From Verrucomicrobiota bacterium (lineage in GTDB: Bacteria; Verrucomicrobiota; Verrucomicrobiia; Chthoniobacterales; UBA10450): DNA of 43,812 bases. The DNA lies in assembly GCA_003218755.1 (NCBI GenBank), contig QHOK01000108.1:1-43812 (forward strand), in the 5' to 3' direction. A program made the translations under genes and the position numbers. Below the pieces are notes generated by a model, which did not search any database, was not told where the DNA came from, and saw nothing but the letters and a program-made list of their open reading frames with translations. Positions 23,395-26,878 of the stretch are shown here, in pieces (position 1 is the stretch's first letter; each line of letters begins with the position of its first letter).

Positions 23395-25482
23395 TTAAGT
23401 GACTTTTGAAAAATTTGGCGACGATGCGTCGGCTGACCACGCATCCAGAACATCTTGAGCGTCCCATCCGCACAAAATCTCTAGATCATTTTGAATCGCT
23501 GATTTGTCGGACAAACCCGCCGCGATAGGCGCAGCTTCAAAGCGCGCGCGATGCATGTCGGCGAATATAGTGAACGCGTTGCGCAGTGTGCTGATGCTCT
23601 GCTCCATCCAGCGGCGAAGACGATTTGCGTAAAGACTCAGAAATTCCAGCAGCGCGCGATCGTATTGCTGCTCGAGCTTTCGTTGAACGTGCGATGCTAT
23701 TACGCCTTTGCCAAACAATGATATCACAGTCGGCTTCTCGACAACGATGGTTTTGGAGATTTCGCTTACGTCCACCATCGGCATGCCGGCGGGTTTGGGC
23801 AACTCATCGGGAACTCCATTTCCAGAGGTCGATGTAACCACCTGCATCGCCTTTGCCAGTGCCTCGCGTGTCTGCTCAATCGAACGCAGGGTGGCAGCGA
23901 CAGGTTCGGCAATGAGGCTGGTAAGCGTCTCGGAAAAAATTGATGCTGCACTCGCATCGTCCGAATCGATCAATCCTGCTGCGATTCGTTGTGCAGCGAT
24001 ATCGATAATTGCTCCGTGCATCTTCGTAATTTTTCGGGTTAGAAAAAACGATTCACCTTGAGCTCGCTGCAAGAGGCGGTCGCCTTCGCGCAATGCTTCT
24101 CTATTTTGCTCGGGCAAGGTGCTACTCACGCCATGAACAGCTTCAGCTTGCAACCTGCGTTCCAAAGCGCCAATCACACTTTCGCGCAACCCGCCGATCT
24201 TTCGCTTTTGGGAAACAACGGCCAATTGGTGATGCTGCGCGAGAAACGGGCGCAGCTCGCTTTCGAACCATCGATCGCATAATGCTGCATGCGTGCCGAA
24301 CACGCTGACCGCATGCACCGGCGGAAGGACGCAAAGCTGATTATGAAGATTTGATTTTATGTATGAAATCATTTGTTCCCGGTCAGCAGCGCTAAAAAGG
24401 TCGGCTTTGCTAATGAGAACCATGGCGCTCGCGCCCGCCTGGTAGAGCGCTTGTACCACAACGAGATCATCCTGGGTAAGGCCATTACTCGCGTCGATCA
24501 AGATTATGCCGACATCGCACCGTGGAAGGTATGCTATCGTCTCCTCCGCGCCCGCAATCGCCAACGAGCCAAGACCCGGCGTATCCACGAACGTGACGCC
24601 TTCTGCCAGACGATCGGACGGCAGCTTAACAAAGATGCGTGTAACATGCTTCTTGTTGCCGGGATTTTTCTGCTCCGTCGCAAACTCAGCCAGCTCTGAC
24701 AATGGAATGATTTGCGGCTGCGCTTCGGCAAATTCAATTCCGGCTTCGGCCACTGGGCCATGGCTGATGCGAGTTGGGATTGCCGTGACCGGTGTAACAC
24801 CGATCGGGAGCACGTTTGTTTGTAAAATGTAATTGAGGAGTGATGACTTGCCGGATGAAACTCTCCCGAAAACGCCGACCTCAAAGGCTGCCGATTCCAT
24901 TCGGTCAAGCAGCATGCTCAGCGTCCCGCGAAATTCGACAAGACCATGCGCCGTGACGATTCTTTCGATCTCGCTGAGCAAACGAATCTCGTCACTAGTT
25001 TTGCCTAATTGTTGGAGACGCTGTTGCAAATCGCCTCCGGCGCCTCGTCCCAGAAAGCTCCGCAGCTTGCCGACCAGTCCATCCAGCTCGGCACGGATTC
25101 GGTCCAATCTATTGGCGGCCTCCGTAGAAAGAGGGCCATAGGCGCGCATTCGTTCCGGCGTGAGCTCGTTGAGTGAGATTGAGCAGTACATCAGGTTAAT
25201 CGCGGCGGCCCACACGGCGCCCGAGTGCGGCTCGGGCGGCGGAATATTGAGCTCCTCCATGACACGGCGCATCGCTTCGCGAACCCGGACGATGTAATCG
25301 TGGGTCACCTTGCGTTGGATTGGCGTCGTGTCGTCGGAGTGTCTTCGGAAAGGCGACAACGAACCAGCATCGGCCATCGTGTGCTCAGCCTCCGAGAGCA
25401 ACTTGTCAATGTACTGAAACGTCGTGCGCACATGCCGCTGATGATGCTCGCTAAAGGGGTGTGCCTTTGTCTCTTCACTCAT
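23395..25482 (-). CDS. Dynamin-like GTPase
   Basis: A 695-residue bacterial dynamin-family protein. After a helical N-terminal part (about 1-190), the GTPase domain has the P-loop GRVSSGKSSLLNYIL (about 215-230), the G2 threonine region (VTPVTAIPTRISHG), G3 in FVDTPGLGSLA, and G4 in LISKADLF. A long helical region (about 440-690) likely forms the stalk; it holds a hydrophobic segment (VEKPTVISLFGKGVIASHV) that may touch membrane. Bacterial dynamins remodel or repair membranes. The start codon overlaps the antiporter stop by four bases (ATGA), so the two proteins are made together. It is unusual to find such a gene under a fluoride riboswitch. Confidence 0.87.
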   Translation of the reverse strand: MSEETKAHPFSEHHQRHVRTTFQYIDKLLSEAEHTMADAGSLSPFRRHSDDTTPIQRKVTHDYIVRVREAMRRVMEELNIPPPEPHSGAVWAAAINLMYCSISLNELTPERMRAYGPLSTEAANRLDRIRAELDGLVGKLRSFLGRGAGGDLQQRLQQLGKTSDEIRLLSEIERIVTAHGLVEFRGTLSMLLDRMESAAFEVGVFGRVSSGKSSLLNYILQTNVLPIGVTPVTAIPTRISHGPVAEAGIEFAEAQPQIIPLSELAEFATEQKNPGNKKHVTRIFVKLPSDRLAEGVTFVDTPGLGSLAIAGAEETIAYLPRCDVGIILIDASNGLTQDDLVVVQALYQAGASAMVLISKADLFSAADREQMISYIKSNLHNQLCVLPPVHAVSVFGTHAALCDRWFESELRPFLAQHHQLAVVSQKRKIGGLRESVIGALERRLQAEAVHGVSSTLPEQNREALREGDRLLQRAQGESFFLTRKITKMHGAIIDIAAQRIAAGLIDSDDASAASIFSETLTSLIAEPVAATLRSIEQTREALAKAMQVVTSTSGNGVPDELPKPAGMPMVDVSEISKTIVVEKPTVISLFGKGVIASHVQRKLEQQYDRALLEFLSLYANRLRRWMEQSISTLRNAFTIFADMHRARFEAAPIAAGLSDKSAIQNDLEILCGWDAQDVLDAWSADASSPNFSKVT

Positions 25483-26762
25483 TTTTTTGCATCGCCGTTA
25501 TCCCCGACATCCTCCACGCTTAGTACCCGTATACGCTTGCGGTAGAGGTGTCCCCACGCATGCATCATCTCCACAGTCGGCTGGAAAAATTTCTGTGCGA
25601 TCAGCGTCGGCACAAATGCGCTCAAGATGACAACACTGACGAGAATCGTGTACTGATTCTGGTCGATGATCCCGTTTTGCAGGCCATACAACGAGGAAAT
25701 CGTTCCAAAGGTGAGCCCCGTGGCCATCAGCAGCGTCGTGTAGCTCGCTTCCTTGATCTTCATGTAGTGCAATCGAGCGAGCGGAAAGACGCCGGCGATT
25801 TTGGTCACCATCTTCAGGCCGAGGAACACGCTGATCACCACCAGTCCTGACCAGAGCGCGGGCAATGAGACGTAGAGTCCAGCCTTGATAAAATAGAAAG
25901 GCGTGAAGATCGCAAAGGCGATGCTGCGCATGCGACGAACGAGCGTTTTGTCTCGAAGAAATACGCCTGCAACGACAAGACCAAGAAGATAGGCTGGCAG
26001 AACGGCTTCGCTTTTAGCTGTCGTGGCAAGGCCGCCGAGAAAGAACAGGACAAAGAAGATAAATTTTACTTCGGGTTCGCTTACCTGCGTTGCACCCAAG
26101 CGAGTGATGATCGCTTGCGTCCACCGTGGCATGAACCACAGAACGATCAACGTCACGATCACAAATAGCAGCAGCCAGAGATTGTAGTTAGCGAACAAGG
26201 TCCCGAGCGCCAGCACGGTTCCGAAATCCGTAATGAAGCAAGCGGCCAAGATCATCTTGCCCATGGCAGTGTCGCCGAATCCGCCCTCGATCATCACCGC
26301 GTAAACGACCGCGACGGAGGTGGTGGAAAGCGCGATGCCAGCGATTTGCGCCTGGTGCAGAGGCCAGCCGAAAACGAATTGGGCGAAGAGCCACACGACA
26401 GCAAATGGAATGGCAAATGAAAGAACACCGATGAGCACGCTTGCACGCCAATTGGCCTTTAGGGAGACGGGATCGATCTCCGCGCCAGCGAGAAACGTGA
26501 GCACGCCACTGCCGAGCAATGCCAGGAAGTTCGTCCATTCCGTCGATTGTAGAACGTGATGGAGATGTCCCGCGCCGGTACCGGCGCTGGCAATGCCGAC
26601 ATGCAACATGCCGCCCTCCAACCCGACAGCGAGATTGCCAGCGACAACGCCAACCAGAATTTCGACCAATGCGACCGAAATTCCGGTCCGGATCGAGATC
26701 AGGCTGGCAATGAGCGCGAGGCCCATCCAGACAGCGGCTATAAACCAAATATTTTCAAACAT
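25479..26762 (-). CDS. Cation/proton antiporter (CPA/Kef-type), fluoride-riboswitch controlled
   Basis: A 427-residue polytopic protein with about 12 hydrophobic helices and the Na+/H+ exchanger fold: VALVEILVGVVAGNLAVG, LALLGSGVLTFLAGAEIDP, IAGIALSTTSVAVVYAVM and the acidic CFITDFGTVLALGTL, which holds the likely ion-binding Asp. No C-terminal TrkA-N domain is present, so it is a bare transporter core. The ATG at 26762 follows a GGAAGGAG ribosome site (26767-26774) buried in a hairpin that is part of a fluoride riboswitch. Antiporters are known targets of that riboswitch class besides Fluc/CrcB and CLC-F, so it probably helps the cell live with fluoride, either by exporting it or by handling linked H+ or Na+. 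Not tested by the sequence. Confidence 0.9.
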   Translation of the reverse strand: MFENIWFIAAVWMGLALIASLISIRTGISVALVEILVGVVAGNLAVGLEGGMLHVGIASAGTGAGHLHHVLQSTEWTNFLALLGSGVLTFLAGAEIDPVSLKANWRASVLIGVLSFAIPFAVVWLFAQFVFGWPLHQAQIAGIALSTTSVAVVYAVMIEGGFGDTAMGKMILAACFITDFGTVLALGTLFANYNLWLLLFVIVTLIVLWFMPRWTQAIITRLGATQVSEPEVKFIFFVLFFLGGLATTAKSEAVLPAYLLGLVVAGVFLRDKTLVRRMRSIAFAIFTPFYFIKAGLYVSLPALWSGLVVISVFLGLKMVTKIAGVFPLARLHYMKIKEASYTTLLMATGLTFGTISSLYGLQNGIIDQNQYTILVSVVILSAFVPTLIAQKFFQPTVEMMHAWGHLYRKRIRVLSVEDVGDNGDAKK

Positions 26763-26766
26763 TAAA

Positions 26767-26845
26767 CTCCTTCCGCTTGGAAGGAGTCATTAGCTCACGC
26801 GGTTTCCCCAGCTTTGACTCTGGGAAGGCAAACTCCATTGCCTTG
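26767..26845 (-). promoter_or_regulatory. Fluoride riboswitch (crcB motif) with SD-sequestering platform
   Basis: Reading the minus strand from about 26845 down: hairpin GGCAATGGAGTTTGCC (26827-26842) with loop ATGGAGTT; hairpin CCCAG-N8-CTGGG (26807-26824); then GAAACCGC (about 26799-26806); then AGCTAATGACTCC (26783-26795). These match the fluoride aptamer, in which the GGAGT loop pairs with the 3' ACTCC as a pseudoknot. The same CTCC strand continues as CTCCTTCC (26779-26786) and pairs perfectly (8 bp) with GGAAGGAG (26767-26774), the antiporter Shine-Dalgarno. Fluoride-stabilised pseudoknot and SD hairpin are mutually exclusive, which predicts translation ON with fluoride. Confidence 0.85.
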
Positions 26846-26850
26846 GTCGG

Positions 26851-26878
26851 AGTCTACCCCCCTCTCTTGTCACTTCAA
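26851..26878 (-). promoter_or_regulatory. Probable promoter of the riboswitch operon
   Basis: On the minus strand TTGAAG (26873-26878) and TAGACT (26851-26856) are 16 bases apart. Initiation would fall a few bases downstream, right at the 5' edge of the aptamer (about 26845), which supports both calls. Confidence 0.5.

Follow-up and report, generated by a model that had tools for sequence, protein, structure and literature searches.

Do antiporters that are driven by fluoride riboswitches only ease acid stress, or can they replace fluoride export? This question is raised by a locus in which a candidate fluoride aptamer precedes a cation/proton antiporter gene, and which in sister species holds the fluoride channel gene crcB. 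We analyzed it in a stretch of 43,812 nucleotides (hereafter the window) from a 2.6-Mb metagenome-assembled genome (293 contigs, 86.9% complete), which is most closely related to soil Chthoniobacterales (Verrucomicrobiota), Candidatus Udaeobacter among them. Among the associations of fluoride riboswitches, Na+/H+ antiporters rank second in frequency, after exporters (PMC11139923, citing Baker et al. 2012), and pH/ion homeostasis has been proposed there as their role under stress. The first-pass annotation of the window had called this antiporter a good new example of such control; the control of Na+/H+ antiporters is indeed established (PMC11139923), hence the association itself is not new. 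The riboswitch is ordinary in kind, and the comparison among close relatives is the informative part.

A Fluoride Riboswitch Ahead of the Antiporter Gene

A search of the minus strand with the RF01734 model, which had been suggested as a check, gave a match above the gathering cut-off of the family (table 1; E-value = 1e-7 for the window). When the whole 2.6-Mb genome was scanned, this was the sole match (E-value = 1.5e-9). Every element of the aptamer layout described in the first-pass annotation was recovered, namely the GGCA/TGCC hairpin, its loop ATGGAGTT, the conserved words AAACCGC and AGCTAATGACTCC, and the pairing with ACTCC, which corresponds to a pseudoknot between GGAGU in the P1 loop and ACUCC (26787-26783). 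The 3' end of the aptamer lies 11 nt upstream of the antiporter ATG, a 5' UTR position, and RNA folding indicated a structure much more stable than shuffled sequences (z = -3.9). A chance match was considered and ruled out by the single genome hit, conservation, and covariation. By sequence, the element in front of the antiporter is a genuine fluoride riboswitch, and the window copy would be expected to bind fluoride.

Table 1. Positions of the riboswitch, the promoter-like pair and the genes it precedes, with the fused frames of related loci
Feature	Position	Strand	Basis
-35-like hexamer TTGAAG	26873..26878	-	Sequence; TTGA-type hexamer at matching place in relatives
-10-like hexamer TAGACT	26851..26856	-	Sequence; TAGAGT-like in relatives
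Fluoride riboswitch aptamer RF01734	26774..26851	-	cmscan, 39.8 bits against a gathering cut-off of 34
P1 stem AAGGCA/TGCCTT	26844-26839 / 26830-26825	-	Sequence
P1 loop ATGGAGTT; 5' pseudoknot strand GGAGU = 26836-26832	26831..26838	-	RF01734 alignment and sequence
Core word AAACCGC	26805-26799	-	Sequence
Shared strand GACTCCTTCC, partner of P1 loop (pseudoknot) or of Shine-Dalgarno	26779..26788	-	Folding and pairing; compensatory changes
Shine-Dalgarno region GGAAGGAGTT, 3' arm of platform hairpin; three U after GGAG	26765..26774	-	Folding and pairing; CCTCC of genus
CPA2-type cation/proton antiporter, 427 aa, PF00999 only	25479..26762	-	Pfam, 8.5e-36; NapA/KefC profile and fold matches
Dynamin-like GTPase, 4-nt overlap with antiporter stop	23395..25482	-	PF00350; coordinates
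Antiporter frame with 13 crcB-like codons (related loci)	L043:2962, L044:1913, L052:2962, L065:2962	+	Start resembles crcB

Compared with the crcB motif RNA (RF01734), the window RNA has the same sequence words, P1, pseudoknot, mutually exclusive downstream hairpin, and placement in the 5' UTR of a transporter gene. It differs in an extra hairpin inserted between P1 and AAACCGC, and in an expression platform that hides the Shine-Dalgarno (SD) sequence and has a very short U-run without a clear terminator.

The transcript is predicted to start about 7 nt downstream of TAGACT, at the edge of P1, as had been proposed from the promoter-like pair TTGAAG-N16-TAGACT. As a lone consensus match this pair is weak and falls under the threshold of the promoter scanner; its position is conserved, with a TTGAT..TAGAGT-like pair at the corresponding place in many relatives.

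Platform Hairpin and Its Conservation

Downstream of the aptamer, GACUCCUUCC-AAGC-GGAAGGAGUU may fold into a hairpin that competes with the pseudoknot. The first-pass annotation had described this competition as a perfect 8-bp complementarity to the SD with a GCTT spacer. The competing pairing was found again, at a length of 10 bp including one G-U; the 4-nt spacer was also confirmed, and reads AAGC on the coding strand, of which GCTT is the reverse complement. The ATG of the antiporter (26762) follows GGAG after a short spacing of 4 nt. The isolated hairpin has a predicted energy of -15.4 kcal/mol; without ligand, the SD is concealed in the minimum free energy structure and its G residues are unpaired with a probability below 1%. 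Opening the SD by force costs about 12 kcal/mol, in energies that leave out the pseudoknot and the ligand. Since the 16S 3' end in this genus carries CCTCC, SD-based control is plausible there.

We then analyzed the leader in 49 fetched loci encoding antiporter relatives, which extend from members of the window's own genus, at about 95% identity, as far as Gemmatimonadota, Chloroflexi, Desulfobacca-like, and Caldimicrobium records. An upstream fluoride aptamer on the same strand was detected in 45 of the 49. In 68 aptamer-platform leader rows, which include a few duplicate detections or near-copies, the pairing of the pseudoknot strand with the sequence downstream had a mean score of 7.2, compared with 4.4 (sd 1.1) after that sequence had been shuffled; the stem search takes the best register, so pairing percentages and counts are somewhat inflated. 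One stem position that is not part of the pseudoknot strand carried the pairs T-A, A-T, and G-C in 16, 10, and 10 of 54 sequences, respectively. Furthermore, P1 loop, shared strand, and SD-side arm covary to GAAGU/ACUUC/GAAGU in L071 and L072 and to GGCGU/ACGCC/GGCG in L074. Because all three strands change together in these loci, the three-strand competition itself is conserved. As had been claimed, the pseudoknot and the SD hairpin should exclude each other, ACUCC being common to both pairings. Fluoride-ON control of the antiporter, with the direction of switching predicted from these structures, is thus well supported by sequence, given that relatives maintain the hairpin through compensatory changes.

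Translation or Transcription Control

SD burial suggests that the platform acts on translation. In the window, the letters after GGAAGGAG are UUUAAUG, and because the hairpin is thus followed by a run of only three U, translational control by SD burial is the likeliest level of regulation there, presumably the main one. An alternative is that the platform is chiefly transcriptional, the hairpin and its U-run forming an intrinsic terminator that fluoride prevents, with SD burial secondary. The hairpin was listed as terminator-like by the scanner, crcB RNAs often overlap with terminators (PMC2864571), and in many relatives the hairpin is directly followed, ahead of the ATG, by U6-U7, with which it could terminate transcription; in L071 and L072 the run reaches U9, far upstream of the antiporter. 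On the other hand, a run as short as that in UUUAAUG would probably not make an efficient terminator in the window, the SD itself forms the 3' arm and stands immediately ahead of the ATG, and four loci (L007, L041, L064, and L074) keep the SD-containing arm without any U-run. We therefore regard a chiefly transcriptional platform as unlikely. An SD-only mode, as first proposed, fits the window sequence but is specific to it, as relatives with U6-U7 could terminate. Likewise, SD burial is again predicted in the window, but the SD-based switch is not new in kind, given the report of a translational fluoride riboswitch from archaea (PMC11077080). Translational and transcriptional control by fluoride could be compared in the set of leaders that are nearly identical but differ in the presence of a U-run.

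The Antiporter and the Downstream Gene

The protein encoded behind the riboswitch shares the NapA fold and profile similarity with the CPA2 antiporters NapA and KefC, both of which are matched by its family profile. A search of solved structures with the antiporter sequence alone found no match, and a profile search gave matches. The best alignment of its structure model (mean pLDDT 80) was with NapA (5bz2; Z = 40.8, rmsd 3.3 over 367 residues). Pfam detected PF00999 only in the 427 residues, in agreement with the earlier statement that a TrkA-N domain is absent; the TrkA_N/RCK domain that distinguishes KefC was not found in it. Relatives with intact frames are likewise short. In the profile alignment, Thr178-Asp179 falls on the Asp-Asp pair of NapA; nearly all relatives have the Thr, and Asp179 is kept. 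Because the position of the first aspartate is occupied by Thr178, transport by this antiporter need not match that of NapA.

In-frame stops noted in outgroup antiporters proved to be normal C-terminal stops. The antiporter of L042 (L042:3001) has an in-frame TAG that ends the frame at codon 353, and this copy may therefore be truncated or misassembled.

The dynamin-like GTPase gene, which overlaps the antiporter stop (table 1), is likely the next gene of the antiporter transcript.

Exchange of crcB and the Antiporter at One Locus

A result beyond the first-pass annotation came from the genomic context in sister genomes. The locus has the order lptB-[riboswitch-X]-hprK; nine sister genomes have crcB-DUF190 as X, and others have the antiporter there. 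Among 35 genomes of the window's genus, crcB is present in 9, the orthologous antiporter in 19, and both in none (hypergeometric probability about 1.6e-4, with kinship ignored); the two never occur together because both occupy the lptB-hprK position behind the same riboswitch. The remaining 7 of the 35 have neither gene, and two of them (G159 and G171) retain the riboswitch. The leaders before the two genes are near-identical, reading GACTCCTTCC-AAAC-GGAAGGAGTT-TTTTAATG before crcB (L083) and GACTCCTTCC-AAGC-GGAAGGAGTT-TTTTTATG before the antiporter (L028). Comparison of these loci indicates that the leader persists and that the transporter behind it is in some cases a fluoride channel and in others a cation/proton antiporter, which belongs to a protein family unrelated to Fluc/CrcB (PF02537).

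In a tree of the flanking genes, crcB and antiporter states interleave, requiring at least 3-4 changes; for example, L032 (antiporter) is sister to L087 (crcB) with support of 100/100. Exchange by recombination at the locus is likely, since the crcB of this genus forms a long branch away from the crcB of full operons, and the antiporter tree pairs the window with L033, in conflict with the flanking-gene tree. Related genera have a full crcB-DUF190-antiporter operon behind the riboswitch (L046, L048, L050, L053, and L057). A recent simple deletion of crcB from such a full operon was examined as the only history and found insufficient, considering the interleaved states, the long crcB branch, and the tree conflict. 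Deletion of crcB may well have happened elsewhere, as crcB-like starts are retained in other loci: in the neighbouring genus g14 the antiporter is fused in frame to a 13-codon crcB-like start (MLNSIWVSFGS...; table 1), apparently a crcB remnant joined to the antiporter, and stretches of about 200 nt with a crcB-like beginning were found in L040, L067, and L073.

Neither crcB nor CLC was found in the window's genome, where at 86.9% completeness absence is not proof. Five antiporter genomes that are 90-96% complete (G161, G169, G172, G177, and G182) likewise yielded neither Fluc nor CLC, and CLC was not found in most antiporter genomes of the genus, the window's included. Like the riboswitch-controlled Na+/H+ antiporters covered in PMC11139923, the window's antiporter lies directly downstream of the aptamer and could serve in pH/ion stress; unlike them, it stands alone at a locus that holds crcB-DUF190 in sister species, in a genome (86.9% complete) with no Fluc or CLC found.

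Proposed Mechanism and Physiological Role

We consider it very probable that the fluoride riboswitch switches the antiporter on as fluoride rises and that the antiporter relieves fluoride stress. In the absence of fluoride, GACUCCUUCC would fold onto GGAAGGAGUU and conceal the SD, as predicted by the conserved structure. When Mg-fluoride is bound, ACUCC would be kept in the pseudoknot with the P1 loop and the hairpin would be blocked. Ribosomes could then start on the antiporter and probably also on the overlapping dynamin-like gene, and the antiporter would relieve fluoride stress, most likely via ion and pH homeostasis. Because it lies at the locus that holds crcB in sister species, the antiporter is probably the fluoride-response transporter of the window's genome; the presence of crcB behind the same switch and in the same spot in those species suggests that it can stand in for the channel.

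How far such a substitution goes depends on what the antiporter transports. It may itself export fluoride, forming a third class alongside Fluc and CLC-F and replacing Fluc directly, which would agree with its holding the crcB position behind the same leader, with the co-occurrence of the two genes in 0 of 35 genomes of the genus, with the several antiporter genomes of 90-96% completeness in which Fluc or CLC was not detected, and with Thr178 beside the retained Asp179, by which NapA-like transport is not required. However, its fold and sequence are those of a cation/proton antiporter, and related genera have it beside crcB in one operon, as if accessory. To our knowledge, no cation/proton antiporter of this fold is known to move fluoride. 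A role in pH homeostasis would also suffice to explain its regulation (PMC11139923), and we find the exporter reading quite improbable. Another explanation is that the aptamer, left over from a past crcB deletion, is decayed or non-responsive and now serves only as a constitutive leader. Its score is modest (39.8 bits, compared with up to 61.6 bits in relatives), but the core words, P1, the pseudoknot, and the competing hairpin are all intact, and the compensatory changes in relatives point to selection on the platform, so that decay can be regarded as very improbable indeed. Returning to a responsive riboswitch that controls the antiporter, a more far-reaching proposal is that in these soil Verrucomicrobiota a short CPA2 antiporter has repeatedly replaced Fluc at one locus behind a preserved riboswitch/ribosome-binding leader and by itself suffices to make the cell resistant to fluoride, whether it is a fluoride exporter of a new type or makes an exporter unnecessary; we put this forward tentatively, as a conjecture that is rather unlikely in its full form. 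Comparison of loci in which the leader is kept and the gene exchanged makes the question of acid stress versus fluoride export testable.

Other Fluoride-Aptamer Loci

Additional fluoride aptamers were observed in the relatives. Several sister genomes have one or two dynamin-like genes downstream, some after a second fluoride aptamer (L090, L091, and L092), and the fluoride regulon may therefore include membrane-remodelling GTPases. In G177, a second aptamer (L090:5303-5393, minus strand) precedes a gene of the MFS family (PF07690; L090:3784-5052, minus strand), a possible further fluoride-response transporter. No obvious fluoride transporter is encoded in the operon that follows the aptamers at L091:8596-8654 and L092:1892-1948 (both plus strand); its products are a DUF6062-like protein, a small AAA ATPase, and a dynamin-like GTPase. 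Two Desulfobacca-like loci carry back-to-back divergent aptamers (L071:642-715, minus, and 819-885, plus; L072:600-673, minus, and 780-851, plus), one of which heads crcB, with the antiporter about 2 kb further on, while the other reads toward a dynamin-like gene. Finally, a c-di-AMP riboswitch (RF00379, 54.7 bits; L041:2633-2794, minus strand) adjoins a fluoride riboswitch-antiporter unit on the opposite strand.
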